Shown here piece by piece: positions 11,535-29,964 of a stretch of DNA of 43,213 nt (within the stretch, counting starts at the first letter, position 1; each line of letters begins with the position of its first letter). A program made the position numbers and the translations under genes. This stretch comes from Sphingomonadaceae bacterium. Its GTDB lineage: Bacteria; Pseudomonadota; Alphaproteobacteria; Sphingomonadales; Sphingomonadaceae. Below the pieces are notes generated by a model. The model did no database searches. It was not told where the DNA came from and saw nothing but the letters and a program-made list of their open reading frames with translations. The stretch is taken from positions 1-43,213 of the forward strand of contig JAFAZF010000015.1 in the NCBI GenBank assembly GCA_019239915.1, read 5' to 3'.

Positions 11535-12026
11535 TCAGGAAAAGCTGCTCTGATTGAGCGTCTCCGCCGCTTCCAGCAACGCATCGGCATGGCCGGGTAC
11601 CCGCACGTTGCGCCAGATCCGCGCGATGCGGCCGTCCTTGTCGATCAGGAAGGTGGCGCGGTCTATGCCCATATATTTGCGGCCGTACAGGCTCTTCTCG
11701 ACCCAGGTGCCGAACGCCTCGCACACCGAACCGTCCGCGTCGGTCGCGAGCGGAACCTTGAGATCATATTTGGCGGTGAACTTCTGATGGTCTTTGGCGC
11801 TGTTCTTCGAGACGCCGAGGATGGCGGTGTCGGCCATGTCGAACGCGGCCTTCTTTTCCGAGAAGTCCTTGGCCTCGGCGGTGCATCCCGAAGTGTCGTC
11901 CTTGGGATAGAAGTAGAGGACGAGCGGACGGCCGCGCAGCTGGCTCAGCTTGAGCGTGCCGCCATCGGGCGTCGCCAGCGCCACGTCGGGAGCCATGTCG
12001 CCTTCGTTGAGCCCGGTGCTAGCCAT
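11535..12026 (-). CDS. bcp: Thioredoxin-dependent thiol peroxidase (BCP-type peroxiredoxin)
   Basis: Protein of 163 residues with the peroxiredoxin pattern GDMAPDVAL, LVLYFYPKDDTSGCTAEA, with peroxidatic Cys48. The usual Pro of the TPGC motif is Ser here. The nearby resolving cysteine of E. coli BCP (five residues on) is absent; a Cys lies further downstream in VCEAFG. It reduces hydroperoxides using thioredoxin. ATG 12026 is preferred because AGGAG is better spaced to it than to ATG 12029. The start lies inside the end of glnE, so the two genes overlap by 8 nt and are probably translationally coupled. Confidence 0.92.
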   Translation of the reverse strand: MASTGLNEGDMAPDVALATPDGGTLKLSQLRGRPLVLYFYPKDDTSGCTAEAKDFSEKKAAFDMADTAILGVSKNSAKDHQKFTAKYDLKVPLATDADGSVCEAFGTWVEKSLYGRKYMGIDRATFLIDKDGRIARIWRNVRVPGHADALLEAAETLNQSSFS

Positions 12027-14712
12027 CATCGTCTCCTGCTGCCTGCCGGGCGATCCCGGACCACGCCTCGCGCACGCACGCGCGCGCCTTCTCATAGGCC
12101 GCAACGAGGCTCGGCCAATCGGGTTGCCCGCACGCGCTTGCGACGAGCGGTCGCGCCGCCTCGGACGGTTCGGCGCCACCCGGCGCGACCAGCCGGAGCG
12201 TCACGAGCAATCGCGACAGGAGGCGCCCGGCCTCGACCAGTTCGGGCGGCAATGCCGCGGCGTCGGCCAGCGCCTCGACCGCCCTGCCCAGCTCCGGCAC
12301 GAAGCCGTCGCGGCGCGCCAGCTGCGTGACATGGACGGCGAATTCGAGGTCGACCAACCCGCCATCGATCAGCTTGACGTCGAACGGCCCCGCGGATGGC
12401 TTATGCTTGGCGATGTCGCCGCGCATCTTGACGGCATCGGCGATCAGCCGCGGAATATCGCGCTCGCGGTGCAGCGTCTCGGCGATGATTGCCTGCAGCG
12501 CCGCGCGCGCCGCCGCCGAACCGAACACCGGCCGCGCGCGCGTGAGCGCCATATGCTCCCACGTCCAGGCGCTCTCGCGCTGGTAGCGCGCGAAGCTGTC
12601 CAGGCTGACGGCGAGCAGACCCTGATTGCCCGACGGCCGCAGCCGCGTGTCGACTTCGTAGAGCGGCCCCGCCGCGGTCGGCACCGACAGCGCCGCCGAA
12701 ACGCGTTGCGCGAGGCGATTGAAGTAATGCGTCGCGCCAAGCGGCTTTCGCCCGTCCGACTCTGCCCGATAGTCGCCGCTGAACAGATAGACGATGTCGA
12801 GGTCGGAGGCGTGCGTCAGCGCGCCGCCGCCAAACCGCCCGAGCGCGAGGATGACGAACTCGGCGCCCGGCACCCGGCCGTGCGTTGCCTCGAACTCGGC
12901 GATCGTCGCGGTCGCCAGCGTCTCGAGCGCCGCCTCGGCGATCCGGCCATAGCCTTGGGACACCTCGAGCGGATCATGCGCCCCGGCGACGATCTGTACG
13001 CCTTGGGCGAAGCGCAGCTCGCCGACGCGTTCGCGCACGAGATCGAGCAGCTTCTGATAGTCGTCGGCCGCATCGCGCTGGCCGAGCGCGCGTGCGAGAT
13101 CGGCGACGCTGCCCGGCGGCTCGAGCGCGCTCGCGTCGAGCAGGCCGTCGAGCAGCGCCGGCCGCTTGCCGAGCGCATCGGCGAGCGCCGGCGCGAGCCC
13201 CAATATGTCGCCGAGGAGATGCACCAGCTGCGGCCGCGCTTCGAGCAGGCGCAGCAGGTTGACCGCGCTCGGCAGACGCCCGAGCATCTCGTCGAACCGG
13301 CGCAGCGCGTGCATCGGATCGGTGCTCGCACCGAATGCCGCGATCAGCGCCGGCAGCAGCCGTTCGAGCGCCTCCTGGGCTGCCGGCGAACGAAGCGCGC
13401 GCATGCCGCCGCCGCGCCACTCTGCGATGCGCTTCGCCGCATGGGCTGCATCGTCGAACCCGGCTGCCGCCAGCGCCGGTTCGAGCGCCGAGGCGTCGGT
13501 CGGCAACCTCTCCTCGCAAGTGGGCTCCAGCGCATCATAGGCGGTGCCGACCGTCGCGACGTGCGGGCGGAGCATCGCGATCAACGCCTTACCATCGGCC
13601 AGCCCATGCAGGCGCGCGACATTGTCGAGCGCCTCAACCGTCTTCGGCAGCCGATGCGTCTGCTGGTCCTCGACCATCTGCAGGCGATGCTCGATCGTGC
13701 GGTAAAGCCGATAGGCATCGGCGAGCGCATCGGCCTGGATCGGGTCGATCCGCGCGGCGTCGCGCAAAGCCACGAGTGCGTCGAGGGTCGCGGGCGCGCG
13801 GAGCGCCGGATCGCGGCCGCCGAAGATCAGCTGGTGGATCTGCGCGAAGAACTCGACTTCGCGAATGCCGCCCCTGCCCCGCTTGAGATCGAAGCCGGGC
13901 GCGAGCGCCTGCCCCTGCGCGTGGTGCTGGCGGATGCGCCGCGAGATCGAGCGGATTTCCTCGATCGCTCCATAGTCGAGAGTCCGCCGCCACACGAACG
14001 GGCGGATCGTCGCGAGGAACTCGCGCCCGAGCGCGATATCGCCCGCAGCGGCGCGCGCGCGGATGAAGGCGGCGCGCTCCCATGGCAACGCCGACGCCTC
14101 ATAATAGGTGATCGCGGCGTTGATCGGCAGCGCGAGCGGCGTCGCCTCCGGCGATGGCCGCAGCCGCAAATCGACGCGGAGCACATGGCCGCCGTCCTGC
14201 GGCGACTGCAGCAGCTCCACTACGCGCCTTGCGATCCGCACCGCCGCCTCGACCGGCTCCTCGCGCGCGCGTCGCGGCAGGGTGTCCGGATCGAAGATCA
14301 GGATCGGATCGATGTCGGAGGAGTAGTTGAGCTCACGGCTGCCATGCTTGCCGAGCGCGAGCGCGGCGAACCCGCGCGGTTCCTCATCCGGCGTGCGCTC
14401 GAGGATCGCGGCCCGGATCGCGGCGTCGAGTGCGCGATCGGCGAAATCGGAGAGCGCCGCCACCACCTGCTCGAGCGTCAGCAGCCCCGCCAGATCCCCG
14501 ACCGCGACGACGAGCGCGAACGCGTGCCGCTCGACGCGCAACGCCCGCGCGACCGTCGCTTCGGCGCCGCCGAGCGCGCGTGCGGCGGCAAGCGCACCCA
14601 CGATGTCGTCGTTGGCCACGAGGTCGCAGAGCGCCGGCATCCGCTGCGCGAGCCTGCGCAGGAACGGCGCGTGCATCAGCGCACGCTCGAGCGCTGCCCG
14701 GCCGGCGCTCAT
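12019..14712 (-). CDS. glnE: Bifunctional glutamine synthetase adenylyltransferase/deadenylase
   Basis: Protein of 897 residues, slightly shorter than enterobacterial GlnE. Two nucleotidyltransferase domains are seen: GKHGSRELNYSSDID at about 121-135 (deadenylylation) and LGRFGGGALTHASDLDIVYL near 630-650 (adenylylation), each with the G-x-D-x-D metal motif. GlnE adds or removes AMP on glutamine synthetase in response to PII proteins and glutamine. It heads a likely two-gene operon with bcp. Its start is divergent from the small NepR-like gene, from which it is separated by only 63 bp. A very long open frame runs antisense to it, which is a GC-bias artefact. Confidence 0.96.
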   Translation of the reverse strand: MSAGRAALERALMHAPFLRRLAQRMPALCDLVANDDIVGALAAARALGGAEATVARALRVERHAFALVVAVGDLAGLLTLEQVVAALSDFADRALDAAIRAAILERTPDEEPRGFAALALGKHGSRELNYSSDIDPILIFDPDTLPRRAREEPVEAAVRIARRVVELLQSPQDGGHVLRVDLRLRPSPEATPLALPINAAITYYEASALPWERAAFIRARAAAGDIALGREFLATIRPFVWRRTLDYGAIEEIRSISRRIRQHHAQGQALAPGFDLKRGRGGIREVEFFAQIHQLIFGGRDPALRAPATLDALVALRDAARIDPIQADALADAYRLYRTIEHRLQMVEDQQTHRLPKTVEALDNVARLHGLADGKALIAMLRPHVATVGTAYDALEPTCEERLPTDASALEPALAAAGFDDAAHAAKRIAEWRGGGMRALRSPAAQEALERLLPALIAAFGASTDPMHALRRFDEMLGRLPSAVNLLRLLEARPQLVHLLGDILGLAPALADALGKRPALLDGLLDASALEPPGSVADLARALGQRDAADDYQKLLDLVRERVGELRFAQGVQIVAGAHDPLEVSQGYGRIAEAALETLATATIAEFEATHGRVPGAEFVILALGRFGGGALTHASDLDIVYLFSGDYRAESDGRKPLGATHYFNRLAQRVSAALSVPTAAGPLYEVDTRLRPSGNQGLLAVSLDSFARYQRESAWTWEHMALTRARPVFGSAAARAALQAIIAETLHRERDIPRLIADAVKMRGDIAKHKPSAGPFDVKLIDGGLVDLEFAVHVTQLARRDGFVPELGRAVEALADAAALPPELVEAGRLLSRLLVTLRLVAPGGAEPSEAARPLVASACGQPDWPSLVAAYEKARACVREAWSGIARQAAGDDDG

Positions 14713-14741: not shown

Positions 14742-14767
14742 GGAAACTCTCGGCGCCACGGCACGTT
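14742..14767 (+). promoter_or_regulatory. Candidate EcfG-type promoter of the NepR-like gene
   Basis: GGAAAC (14742-14747), 16 nt, then CGTT (14764-14767). The general stress sigma factor EcfG recognises GGAAC-N16/17-CGTT-like promoters. The same GGAAAC variant occurs before phyR in this window. The ATG at 14776 is only 8 nt beyond, so the mRNA could be leaderless or nearly so. Confidence 0.5.
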
Positions 14768-14775
14768 TTATAGAC

Positions 14776-14952
14776 ATGTATCAAGTGCGTTGGCAGAGTG
14801 AGAACGGTTCGGCGGTGGCTTACCAGGCCAACCAGCCGGTTCGCGCGCGTCCGCTCCACGAGGGCGTCGGCGACGCGCTCCGCGCCGCTTATGAGCCCAG
14901 CCAGCTCAACCTGCCCGAGGATATGAAGGGTCTGTTGGCCAGAATCCGATAG
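14776..14952 (+). CDS. Small NepR-like protein (possible second anti-sigma factor)
   Basis: Protein of 58 residues starting MYQVRWQSENGS. The last 27 residues, VGDALRAAYEPSQLN then LPEDMKGLLARI, line up with the NepR of this window (VGGALRSAYQKVVDEQTPSD then LLDLLKKL). VG.ALR.AY, the P-x-D and the LL are shared, with one residue missing in the loop. NepR folds as two helices that grip EcfG, and the two helices are kept here. The N-terminus differs. The gene faces ecfG and has an EcfG-type promoter motif directly upstream. ATG 14737 in the same frame is an alternative start, but it would lie within that promoter. Anti-EcfG activity is inferred. Confidence 0.6.
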   Translation: MYQVRWQSENGSAVAYQANQPVRARPLHEGVGDALRAAYEPSQLNLPEDMKGLLARIR

Positions 14953-15758: not shown

Positions 15759-15899
15759 TTACCGGTAGATGAGGTAGAGAATCGCGAACAGGACGATGAT
15801 CGCGGCAAGCGAGATGCCGAGAACATAGCGCGTTACGCCCGGCGTCGAGCCGGCGCGCGCCTCGTCCGTATCGAGATGGGTGCGGCCGTTCTGCGCCAT
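15759..15899 (-). CDS. 46-residue single-pass membrane protein of the ecfG operon
   Basis: Starts at ATG 15899 (MAQNGRTHLDTDEARAGSTP), with GAGGA 8 nt upstream. The N-terminal half is soluble and polar; the C-terminal half is one hydrophobic helix (YVLGISLAAIIVLFAILYLI) ending YR. It lies between phyR and ecfG on the same strand, 95 bp before the ecfG start. A consensus-like EcfG promoter sits 38-62 bp upstream, so it should be stress-induced together with ecfG. No known domain is recognised. Confidence 0.7.
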   Translation of the reverse strand: MAQNGRTHLDTDEARAGSTPGVTRYVLGISLAAIIVLFAILYLIYR

Positions 15900-15936: not shown

Positions 15937-15961
15937 AACGCAAGCCCCGGTGGGTGGTTCC
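15937..15961 (-). promoter_or_regulatory. EcfG-type promoter for the membrane peptide gene and ecfG
   Basis: Reading the minus strand: GGAAC (15961-15957), 16 nt, CGTT (15940-15937). This is an exact match to the GGAAC-N16-CGTT pattern. It lies in the gap between the phyR stop and the small membrane protein gene and would start transcription about 30 nt before ATG 15899. Confidence 0.75.
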
Positions 15962-15975
15962 GCAAGGGTGTCGCG

Positions 15976-16773
15976 TCAGGCAGGCACAGTCGCCGCGTCG
16001 AAGAACAGCGCCTGGCTGATCGCTGCCTTCACCGTTGAGCGCTGGAACGGCTTGGTAATCAGGAAGGTCGGCTCCGGCCGCTCGCCGGTGAGCAGTCGCT
16101 CGGGGAAGGCGGTGATGAAGATCACCGGCACCTGGAACTGGGCGAGGATGTCCTTGACCGCATCGATGCCCGAACTGTCGTCGGCGAGCTGGATGTCGGC
16201 GAGCACGAGGCCGGGGCGCCGCGCCATCGCCTGCGCGACCGCCTCGTCGCGCGTCACCGCGACGCCGGTGACCTCGTGGCCGAGATCGCGCACGATCGTC
16301 TCGAGGTCCATCGCGATGATCGGCTCGTCCTCGATGATCAGCACCTCGGCATGCGTCTGCCGCTCGATCTCGGCGAGCGCCTCCGCGACGAGCCCCTCGA
16401 CCTCGGTCGCGGTGGCGTCGATCAGATAGCCGGTATCCTCGGGCGTGAAGCCCTCCATCGCGGTCAGCAGCAACGCCTGGCGCGACAGCGGCGTGATGCG
16501 CGAGAGGCGCGCGCGCGCGATCGCCTCCGGCTCCTTGTCCTCCTGACCACCATCGACGCCGGTTTCGACATTGGCCGAGCTCCAGATCGCGTGGAAGGTC
16601 CGGTAGAGGCCAAGCCGGGCATCGACGTCGCGCGGGAAATCATTCGGTGCCGCAACGATCGCCTCGAGCGTCGCCCGCACGAAGGCGTCGCCATGTTGCT
16701 GCGTGCCGGTCAGCGCGCGCGCATAGCGGCGCAGGAAGGGAAGATGGGGAGCGAGTTCCTGACCGAGCGACAT
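15976..16773 (-). CDS. phyR: General stress response regulator PhyR
   Basis: Protein of 265 residues with the diagnostic fusion: a sigma-factor-like N-terminal domain (about 1-125, SLGQELAPHLPFLRRYARAL) and a C-terminal receiver (about 140-260). The receiver has acidic pocket EDE, phospho-acceptor Asp193 (LADIQL), the FITAFPERLLTG segment and Lys in ITKPF. On phosphorylation the sigma-like domain binds NepR and frees EcfG. ATG 16773 is chosen (GGAGAGG upstream); the longer open frame is out of family. A candidate EcfG-type promoter on this strand at 16899-16924 overlaps that of nepR on the other strand. Confidence 0.96.
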   Translation of the reverse strand: MSLGQELAPHLPFLRRYARALTGTQQHGDAFVRATLEAIVAAPNDFPRDVDARLGLYRTFHAIWSSANVETGVDGGQEDKEPEAIARARLSRITPLSRQALLLTAMEGFTPEDTGYLIDATATEVEGLVAEALAEIERQTHAEVLIIEDEPIIAMDLETIVRDLGHEVTGVAVTRDEAVAQAMARRPGLVLADIQLADDSSGIDAVKDILAQFQVPVIFITAFPERLLTGERPEPTFLITKPFQRSTVKAAISQALFFDAATVPA

Positions 16774-17049: not shown

Positions 17050-17220
17050 TTGGCTTTGAGCGATGAAAAAAAGGGGCGGAGAAAAGCCAGCGCAAGCGGC
17101 GGCTCCGGCAAGAACAATCAGGCTCGCGATGTCGGCGGCGCGCTCCGATCCGCCTATCAAAAGGTGGTGGATGAGCAGACGCCTTCCGACCTGCTCGACC
17201 TGCTCAAGAAACTCAGCTGA
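17050..17220 (+). CDS. nepR: Anti-sigma factor NepR
   Basis: Protein of 56 residues. A charged, disordered N-terminus (ALSDEKKGRRKASASGG) is followed by the conserved NepR core VGGALRSAYQKVVDEQTPSD and LLDLLKKLS, two amphipathic helices joined by a short loop. It binds and inactivates EcfG, and is removed by phosphorylated PhyR. TTG 17050 is taken as start because AAGGAG at 17035-17040 is well placed; no ATG in this frame is suitable. The gene is divergent from phyR and precedes phyP by 24 bp, as expected for the sphingomonad locus. Confidence 0.9.
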   Translation: MALSDEKKGRRKASASGGSGKNNQARDVGGALRSAYQKVVDEQTPSDLLDLLKKLS

Positions 17221-17244: not shown

Positions 17245-18858
17245 ATGAACCCTCCGCTTCAATCCAAACCACGCGCCGCGGCGTTGGCCAATCTGTTCGC
17301 GCGGCTTTCGACCGGCATGAAGATGCTGATCATCCTCTCGGCAGCGCTGCTGCCGCTGGGGCTGATCGCGCTGCTCGCTTCGGTTCAGTCGGCCGAGAAT
17401 AACCGCCAGACACGCAACGCCGCCTCGCGTCTGCTCGCGACCGATGCGGCCGATCGCGTCAACATGCTGATAGCGCGTACCGCCGTGACGATGCGGGCGG
17501 CGAGCACCGCCTTCGGCGATGCGCTGCCGGGCTCGCCCACTTGCCAGCGCACGATCGAGGCGCTCGCCGCCTCCCATCGGCTCAAACTGCGTTTCGCGAT
17601 CTTCAACGCAAGCGGCCAACTCGTCTGCGCCGTACGCGGTTACCGGCCGGCGGTGCCGACGCTGGCGCTCGCCGATGCCTCACGCACCGATATCGCTCCC
17701 GGTGGCGATGGGCTGTTGCTCGTCACCCGCGCCGCGAGCGGCGATGCGCTTGGCGTCGCGCAGCTGCCGGCCGCGGTGCTCACCGCCATCTCCCACCCCC
17801 ACGTGCCCCCTGGGAGCTACTTCCTCGCGGTTCGGGAAGGCGCGACCACACTGACGCTCGCGACCATCACGAGCCGACCGATCGGCAAGCTGATGACAAT
17901 CAGCGCGCCGTTCGCGCGTGCGCGGCTGACGCTCGTGATGACGATCCCCGAGACGCCGATCAGCTCGACCGAGATGCTGGTCATCGTGTTGCCGGTGCTG
18001 ATGTGGCTGGCCGCCGCGATCATCGGCTGGCTGGTCGTCGATCGGCTGCTTTTGCGCCCGCTGACGCGGCTGCAGGCGGCGATCAGCGCCTATGCCGCGG
18101 GGGATGCGCGCATCACCATACCCGCCCTGACGACGCCGGCGATCGAGATCCGCCAACTCGGAGAATCCTTCCGCGGAGTCGCGCTGACCGTCGCGCGCCA
18201 CGAAGCCGAGCTCGAGGAAGGCATCATGCGCCAGACACGGCTGACGCGCGAGGTGCATCATCGCGTCAAGAACAACCTGCAGGTGGTGGCGAGCCTGCTC
18301 AGCCTCCATGCGCGCGGCGCCAAGAGCGTCGACATCGCCGCCGCCTATGCCTCGATCCAGCGCCGGGTCGACGCGCTCGCGATCGTCCATCGCAACCATT
18401 ATGCCGAGCTGGAGGAGAGCCGCGGCGTCGCGCTTCGACCGCTGATCGCCGAACTCGCCGCCAATCTGCGCGGTTCGATGCCCGACGACGCAAAGGCGCC
18501 TGCGATCCTGCTCGACCTCAAGCCGTTCTACGCGACGCAGGATGTGGCGGTCTCGGTCGCCTTCCTGATTACCGAGCTCGTCGAGATGGCGCTGCTCTGC
18601 GCGCCGGCGAGTCGTGTTGCCGTTCATCTCGCGGCGACGGAGCGCGGCGACCGTGCGCGGCTCGCCGTAAACTCGCCGGCGCTACGCCCCGATGCCTGCG
18701 GCGACCAGGATGTCTCGTTGCGCTTCCGACGGGTCATCGAGGGGCTATCGCGCCAACTTCGCTCGGCCCTGATGCACGACGAGGATTGTATCGCGATCGA
18801 GATTGCCGTGATCGGCGACGCAGCGGCCGAAGAGGGCTCACCGCGCGCGGCCGCCTAG
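17245..18858 (+). CDS. phyP: PhyP-like HisKA_2 sensor protein with degenerate ATPase domain
   Basis: Protein of 537 residues. TM1 lies at about 28-48, a periplasmic sensor at about 50-235, TM2 at about 240-262, then a HAMP-like linker. The H-box REVHHRVKNNLQVVASLLSL has His338/339. The C-terminal ATP-binding domain is worn: the N-box reads LITELVEMALLCAP, lacking the Asn that binds magnesium, and no D-x-G-x-G is visible. In Sphingomonas Fr1, PhyP is encoded beside nepR and acts as a negative regulator of PhyR, probably as a phosphatase. Position and degenerate ATPase fit that role. Genuine kinases for PhyR would lie elsewhere. Confidence 0.87.
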   Translation: MNPPLQSKPRAAALANLFARLSTGMKMLIILSAALLPLGLIALLASVQSAENNRQTRNAASRLLATDAADRVNMLIARTAVTMRAASTAFGDALPGSPTCQRTIEALAASHRLKLRFAIFNASGQLVCAVRGYRPAVPTLALADASRTDIAPGGDGLLLVTRAASGDALGVAQLPAAVLTAISHPHVPPGSYFLAVREGATTLTLATITSRPIGKLMTISAPFARARLTLVMTIPETPISSTEMLVIVLPVLMWLAAAIIGWLVVDRLLLRPLTRLQAAISAYAAGDARITIPALTTPAIEIRQLGESFRGVALTVARHEAELEEGIMRQTRLTREVHHRVKNNLQVVASLLSLHARGAKSVDIAAAYASIQRRVDALAIVHRNHYAELEESRGVALRPLIAELAANLRGSMPDDAKAPAILLDLKPFYATQDVAVSVAFLITELVEMALLCAPASRVAVHLAATERGDRARLAVNSPALRPDACGDQDVSLRFRRVIEGLSRQLRSALMHDEDCIAIEIAVIGDAAAEEGSPRAAA

Positions 18859-29866: not shown

Positions 29867-29964
29867 GCGCAAGCCTATAGGCGGACGGACGCAACCCGAC
29901 AATTCATTGCCCGTTCAAGGCGTCGCCCGCTAAAGCTCCCGCGTGGAGACGGAATGAGGCCGAG

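Follow-up and report, generated by a model that had tools for sequence, protein, structure and literature searches.

The short open reading frame (ORF) that faces ecfG in the window analysed here, a stretch of 43,213 nucleotides from a Sphingomonadaceae bacterium, is a conserved coding gene and, judged by position, gene order and helix-1 residues, the orthologue of nepR2 of Sphingomonas melonis Fr1. In the window organism, its product most likely serves as a PhyR-binding feedback brake rather than as a classical anti-sigma factor. NepR2 as a paralogue and feedback brake is already known from Fr1 (PMC6599016); what appears to be new is that close relatives conserve it, together with an unusually fixed and apparently leaderless promoter. 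In the Sphingomonas relatives examined, a brake so far known from a single strain would thereby belong to the regular equipment of the stress circuit, though domain libraries miss NepR2.

In the window, the ORF sits between glnE and ecfG, its stop codon 63 bp from that of ecfG. The features of the locus are as follows.

12019-14712 (-): glnE, divergent from nepR2, with 63 bp between the start codons
14742..14767 (+): EcfG-type promoter GGAAAC-N16-CGTT, with the -10 element ending 8 nt before the nepR2 ATG
14776..14952 (+): nepR2 orthologue, from ATG at 14776 to TAG at 14950-14952, 58 residues
15016..15669 (-): ecfG, ECF sigma factor with regions 2 and 4, convergent with nepR2
15759-15899 (-): small membrane-protein ORF between phyR and ecfG, in the place of Fr1 #1446
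15976..16770 (-): phyR, anti-sigma factor antagonist, the presumed binding partner of NepR2
17053..17220 (+): canonical nepR (PF18557, 28.9 bits; cut-off 25.7)
17245..18858 (+): HisKA_2/HWE sensor kinase, in the position of phyT/phyP in Fr1

The phyR product is the genome's only match to PF22233 at E 0.01, which leaves a single PhyR-type sigma-like domain.

Conservation and coding constraint

Related loci were fetched with the ecfG product, and the sample consists of the best-matching 80 of at least 577, so that it is biased toward close relatives. Its labels are mostly Sphingomonas, with Sphingosinicella, Hephaestia, Parasphingopyxis, unclassified alphaproteobacterial MAGs and one Bacillus (L038) among them. 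The NepR2 profile was seeded with 14 hand-picked peptides, and locus E-values refer to a nominal database of 1000. On the strand opposite to ecfG and following it, a homologue lies within 1 kb in 70 of the 81 loci (the 80 and the window), and two further homologues at about 1.1 kb bring the number beside ecfG to 72.

Whole genomes were searched for the nine remaining loci. Seven of them, including that of Sphingomonas melonis AS2.3, carry nepR2 elsewhere, each time adjoining glnE, and NepR2 is found in all in 79 of the 81 close relatives (80 loci and the window). glnE is absent from the flank in eight of the nine loci without a nearby nepR2, and seven of these eight are the relocated copies; in the other, L009, the genome search matched canonical NepR only. 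In L082, glnE is nearby and nepR2 was not found at the sensitivity used. Where glnE is in the flank (71 loci), nepR2 accompanies it in 70. The nepR2-glnE pairing is a linkage that survives rearrangements, nepR2 staying with glnE in 7 of the 8 cases in which glnE is not near ecfG.

All ten same-genus genomes (the window and nine others) carry nepR2. In the nepR2 frame, two pairs of close congeners give pN/pS values of 0.007/0.200 and 0.040/0.133. Read in the other two frames, the same pairs give pS/pN values of 0.022/0.066, 0.062/0.041, 0.045/0.077 and 0.019/0.084, so that the relation of pN to pS is reversed in three of the four cases, the fourth being 0.041/0.062 as pN/pS. The 45 pairs among the ten genomes have a median pN/pS of 0.73, and dS reaches 1.2-3.9 in the nine pairs that include the window; nepR2 is therefore fast-evolving, and the wider pairs are little informative. 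Identity to the window ORF is 19-38%, a poor conservation of sequence. The motif W[QKT]S recurs inside the first 12 residues in 6 of the 10 same-genus copies, which supports the ATG at 14776 as the start codon. Antisense to glnE, the nepR2 frame stays open over some 1000 codons, so that its openness alone is uninformative. It is the conservation, the constraint and the promoter that bear out the proposal, made in a sequence-only reading of this DNA, that the ORF at 14776 is a gene facing ecfG.

In the wider family, 42 of 149 genomes (28 of 96 genera) match the NepR2 profile at E 1e-6, a lower bound in that part of the candidates per genome were scored, and a count in which some matches may be canonical NepR. 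Among 60 relatives, 30 match at E 0.01 with canonical NepR counted in; beyond the family, one in 24 does so (E 0.0099). NepR2 is thus common and, at the sensitivity used, not universal in the whole family.

Membership in the NepR family

The sequence-only reading had likened the ORF to the NepR encoded at 17053-17217, and the shared VG.ALR.AY, P.D and LL positions can be read directly from the two proteins, as can the one-residue shorter loop between the helix-1 tyrosine and the helix-2 proline. Comparison among relatives likewise supports a second NepR-like protein. The check with a family model that had been suggested gives a divided answer: the Pfam NepR model, at its gathering score, has no match for the window ORF, to which Pfam and NCBIfam assign no family, and the relatives' own profile finds the solved NepR proteins.

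This profile was built from alignment A1, which holds 70 of the 72 ORFs; L058 (the same hit as L046) and L026 (an uncertain GTG start) were omitted. PF18557 matches 9 of the 70 A1 sequences at E 0.1 or better (best 0.00048), and no other Pfam family matches more than a single member. The two Fr1-like copies described below score 12.7 and 14.9 bits with PF18557 (cut-off 25.7), and the AS2.3 copy has no PF18557 match. Against PDB chain sequences, the A1 profile finds NepR of 2lfw (E 4.4e-5) and of 3t0y (E 3.6e-4), followed by weaker matches to a designed protein (0.22) and to NepR of 5uxx (0.28) and 4qic (0.35), and nothing beyond those five up to E 10. Aligned with the window NepR by hhalign, it gives a probability of 93.7% (E 1.8e-7). 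The NepR2 profile also matches the canonical nepR product of the window's own genome (E 2.0e-5); among the 11 loci with such matches listed, it picks out canonical nepR in 10.

AlphaFold2 predicts helices at residues 28-45 and 48-57 of window NepR2 (mean pLDDT 69.7, with 81-84 per block over residues 31-58; pTM 0.37). The two-helix pattern G..LR..[YF] and P..[hydrophobic]..LL is present in sequence, prediction and column counts, the columns of L35, R36 and Y39 holding L in 69/70, R in 65/70 and F, Y or W in 70/70 sequences, the window included. By these comparisons, the window ORF is a diverged NepR paralogue that domain libraries miss.

Orthology with NepR2 of Sphingomonas melonis Fr1

The question of whether this paralogue had been described, on which the sequence-only reading professed ignorance, was answered in 2019. 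In the accessible text of PMC6599016, Gottschlich et al. identify NepR2 as #1448, adjoining ecfG (#1447) in S. melonis Fr1 and lying within the EcfG regulon, and report the induction of #1448 by a stress mix as slightly under their cut-off. Deletion of nepR2 raises and overexpression lowers GSR activity, overexpression also leads to lower salt resistance, plasmid-borne nepR2 lowers the response in the deletion strain, and PhyR co-immunoprecipitated with NepR2. Of four substitutions reported there, L31A and F35A were weakening, and R32A and M46A were without effect.

The window order kinase-nepR-phyR-small ORF-ecfG-nepR2 is that of Fr1 #1443-#1448. Fr1-like genomes were sought among 295 genomes of the genus of AS2.3 with chain B (46 residues) of PDB 2lfw, which we take to be NepR of Fr1; 80 match at E 1e-12, and two are 100% identical (46/46 residues). 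Numbering by 2lfw gives L32, R33, Y36 and M48, as quoted in PMC6599016. The published Fr1 promoter sequences of #1444 and #1446 recur exactly in the Fr1-like genomes G222 and G079, and that of #1442 is exact in the G079 stretch only. Both genomes carry nepR2 between ecfG and glnE with L31, R32 and F35, and position 46 is M in G222 and V in G079; the G222 copy, a 56-residue ORF beside ecfG, accordingly has all four of the residues mutated in Fr1.

BLASTP aligns window NepR2 with the G222 copy over 29 columns, of which 12 are identical, with a two-residue gap. The helix-1 residues L31, R32 and F35 of Fr1 NepR2 correspond to L35, R36 and Y39 of the window, so that the aromatic is kept. Fr1 NepR2 thus resembles the window protein in its place adjoining ecfG, in gene order, in its two helices and in the helix-1 L/R/aromatic set, and the Fr1-like copies share an EcfG-type promoter with window nepR2. 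They differ in the stretch from Tyr/Phe to Pro, which relative to NepR is one residue shorter in the window and three residues shorter in the Fr1-like copies. An equal loop length in window and Fr1 was considered and rejected, as it rested on the published mapping of M46 and the Fr1-like sequences differ.

That mapping equates M46 of NepR2 with M48 of NepR in the available text of PMC6599016. Three residues beyond the helix-2 proline, at the place of M48 in NepR, the Fr1-like copies have F44; the family profile aligned to 2lfw agrees with this register, and BLASTP of window NepR2 with the G222 copy sets M50, the window equivalent of NepR M48, on F44. The Pfam coordinates fit this register too, with NepR2 residues 39-54 falling on profile positions 19-34 and window NepR residues 28-54 on positions 5-31. 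These alignments suggest F44, not M46, as the Fr1 NepR2 equivalent of NepR M48, and the null effect of M46A may be due to this.

The nepR2 promoter

The motif GGAAAC-N16-CGTT ends 8 nt before the ATG, as had been noted (14742-14767). GNAAAC-N16-CGTT has this single match in the window, with 0.12 expected and one match in 12 of 100 shuffles; for comparison across the family, the motif was treated as GAAAC-N16-CGTT. When the 100 nt preceding the chosen start are scanned for GGAAC-N15-18-CGTT, with nine positions scored, the best site reaches 8/9 in 62 of the 72 nepR2 loci, a count over related loci rather than of independent events. Scores of at least 8 occur in 4.9% of 3600 shuffles and in 5/72 cases on the opposite strand. 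The best site has GCAAC or GAAAC as its -35 element in 71/72 loci and CGTT as its -10 element in 62/72, and GGAAC-N16/17-NGTT is found upstream of nepR2 in none of the 72 stretches; the consensus is G[C/A]AAC-N16/17-CGTT or near.

The -10 element ends 8-9 nt before the chosen nepR2 start in 49/72 loci. A second scan, which allows in-frame alternative starts at 4-15 nt and thus favours short distances by design, places the 62 sites of 8/9 at 8 (30), 9 (27), 10 (2) and 11 (3) nt from ATG (54) or GTG (8); nine more sites of 7/9 raise the total to 71/72 loci, with none in L026 (5/9). An 8/9 site 4-15 nt before the start is present in 10 of the 10 same-genus genomes. The seven relocated nepR2 copies keep the motif (six at 8/9, one at 7/9), with a spacing of 8-9 nt in six and 17 nt in one, and a GTG start in three. 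Comparison among relatives lends support to both the EcfG-type promoter and the nearly leaderless transcript that had been proposed.

Canonical nepR offers a contrast. A strict pattern finds it in 49 of the 81 loci, the set used here, the remaining 32 not being included. Shine-Dalgarno-like tetramers within 16 nt precede nepR2 in 9/72 cases versus nepR in 37/49, the latter count being more lenient in that any in-frame start was allowed. GGAAC-N16/17-[TGA]GTT lies within 420 nt of nepR in 49/49 cases, as compared with 10/980 shuffles, and is the best-scoring site in 46/49, 157-291 nt before the conserved helix.

With its promoter mostly 8-9 nt before the start codon, the nepR2 mRNA is probably leaderless or nearly so. 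All leaderless starts reported for S. meliloti in the available portion of PMC3616915 used AUG, and the apparent GTG in 8/62 nepR2 copies calls for caution on this point. The supposition that a -35 element other than GGAAC makes a weak promoter was dropped; weakness is not claimed for nepR2 because in vitro data for Sphingopyxis granuli TFA speak otherwise, GCAAC versus GGAAC having mattered little there and CGTT being the best -10 element, as described in the accessible part of PMC7083833.

Conceivably, though this is a tentative reading that may well prove wrong, nepR2 represents a distinct class of EcfG promoter (CGTT, a -35 element other than GGAAC, 8-9 nt spacing) that is under selection and yields a leaderless mRNA for the brake, the Fr1 M46A substitution having fallen on the wrong position and F44 being the match of M48. 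With the same reserve, the nepR promoter would stand opposite, with a perfect -35 element, an imperfect -10 element and a leader. If so, the NepR and NepR2 brakes would be timed or translated differently during stress. The pair lends itself to a sharp and cheap test of the way in which two inhibitors with a common target are staggered by a cell. Literature on NepR2, EcfG, Sphingomonas and leaderless, mostly outside subscription journals, yielded no prior account of either the promoter pattern or the glnE linkage, and the words "leaderless" and "glnE" are absent from the main text of PMC6599016.

Similar sites occur elsewhere in the window. Two more GCAAC-N16-CGTT sites lie at 29891-29915 (+) and 12103-12127 (-), and G[ACG]AAC-N16-CGTT occurs 4 times against 0.79 expected, a number reached in 1 of 100 shuffles. 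A perfect GGAAC-N16-CGTT is located at 15937-15961 (-), by the small membrane-protein ORF (15759-15899). Across the 80 loci, the best site at this ORF has GGACC or GGAGC as its -35 element with CGTT 8-9 nt before the ATG in 10, and 38 have no 8/9 promoter site.

Proposed mechanism and alternatives

It is considered very probable that the ORF is nepR2, made by EcfG from a near-leaderless mRNA, and that its product occupies activated PhyR and so frees NepR to damp the response. Stress would release EcfG, which would transcribe nepR2 from its G[C/A]AAC-N16-CGTT promoter into an mRNA with little or no leader. NepR2, which appears to retain both helices of NepR as well as the residues by which helix 1 touches the PhyR sigma-like domain, would then occupy activated PhyR, so that canonical NepR would be free to rebind EcfG. 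With NepR back on EcfG, the response would be damped or shut off, an anti-anti-anti-sigma action that amounts to delayed negative feedback and provides the simplest account. Comparable feedback has been proposed for a NepR paralogue in Methylobacterium, according to the available text of PMC4814048. The account joins the gene, its coding constraint, NepR homology, conserved promoter and orthology by gene order, as found here, to EcfG dependence, a negative effect and PhyR binding, as demonstrated by others in Fr1 (PMC6599016); from these we infer the same action in the window organism, the leaderless start and competition as the mechanism. Of the three roles that the sequence-only reading had offered, it is that of a PhyR decoy in negative feedback that is backed by experiment in the Fr1 orthologue, by PhyR co-immunoprecipitation and by the effects of deletion and overexpression.

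The first of the other two roles, a true second anti-sigma factor that binds EcfG directly, in the manner of RsiA2 in Sinorhizobium meliloti, and PhyR in addition, seems unlikely. Both NepR helices are kept in the prediction, the profile matches canonical NepR, and sigma-factor binding is on record for both RsiA proteins of S. meliloti (PMC4814048). However, in the Fr1 two-hybrid assay NepR2 and EcfG were unstable together, unlike NepR and EcfG (a result given as data not shown in the text available from PMC6599016), which does not support classical action on EcfG there and which the authors suggest might mean that no complex forms. Moreover, the interhelix loop varies in length among NepR2 proteins and is constant in canonical NepR, and Methylobacterium includes NepR paralogues that bind PhyR without detected sigma binding (PMC4814048).

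A much poorer case can be made that nepR2 acts chiefly as an RNA, by read-through that yields antisense RNA to the ecfG 3′ end. The genes are convergent with a gap of at most 100 bp in 58/72 loci, and among the 65 loci whose gap is at most 250 bp, a crude, uncontrolled scan leaves 41 with neither side showing a terminator-like site. Against this, 7 of the 8 genomes without glnE near ecfG keep nepR2 and its promoter at glnE, apart from ecfG; constraint acts on the protein, as seen from pN/pS in close pairs; and the effect of plasmid-borne nepR2 in the Fr1 deletion strain points the same way (PMC6599016, available text). Antisense action on ecfG as the main function is rejected because nepR2 follows glnE, not ecfG.

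Still less plausible is the remaining suggestion, by which NepR2 would serve a different ECF15 sigma factor as its dedicated partner. Alphaproteobacteria commonly have ecfG paralogues (PMC4814048), but only one EcfG was found in this genome, where a protein search at E 1e-5 gives a single further match, which has 36% identity and adjoins what is, judged by look, probably its own anti-sigma factor. This other ECF sigma factor gene, beside that anti-sigma-like protein, lies on contig C26 of the genome (L110:829-2001, minus strand).

A chance ORF in GC-rich DNA, with its long open frame antisense to glnE and its lack of a Pfam family, is refuted by conservation, coding constraint and promoter, and carries next to no weight.

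Comparison with other NepR-like proteins

Canonical NepR (PF18557; PDB 2lfw, 3t0y) shares with the window protein a helical pair and the elements G.ALR..[YF] and P..[ML]..LL; it differs in that the window ORF has no Pfam match and another promoter type, and in that Fr1 NepR2 lacks evidence of EcfG binding. MexAM1_META2p0735 of Methylobacterium extorquens, according to the available text of PMC4814048, has an EcfG-type promoter, binds PhyR and acts negatively on overexpression, with no sigma binding detected; it belongs to a different genus and is likened to NepR2 by description. NepR2 of Sphingopyxis granuli TFA has the same name and an EcfG-type promoter, but according to PMC7083833 its gene shares an operon with ecfG1, which it precedes and overlaps, and has a GGAAC -35 box, an arrangement unlike that of the window. 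RsiA2 of S. meliloti is likewise a second NepR and a negative regulator; it differs in binding the sigma factor and in not being RpoE2-regulated, as described in the available part of PMC4814048. Further literature on NepR2 includes PMC11165598.

Further NepR-like matches

On contig C43 of the window's own genome, an ORF (L111:2808-3077, plus strand) ending ALQAFFGSTAAEPLPSDMHAMLAKLD resembles NepR helix 2 and adjoins ORFs that by look resemble phage tail genes. It matches the NepR2 profile at E 0.0099 and PF18557 at E 0.315 and has no PHROG match; by tblastn no viral contig codes for a relative, and of 33 pattern matches none was confirmed. As a third NepR it was set aside as a weak match that could be chance. 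A different NepR-like short ORF, with the pattern AFAQP.GQ.LP..F..[LM]L..LDR, occurs away from the GSR locus in 4 of 9 congeners (L112, L113, L114 and L115), at about bases 2160-2810 on the strand of the hit.
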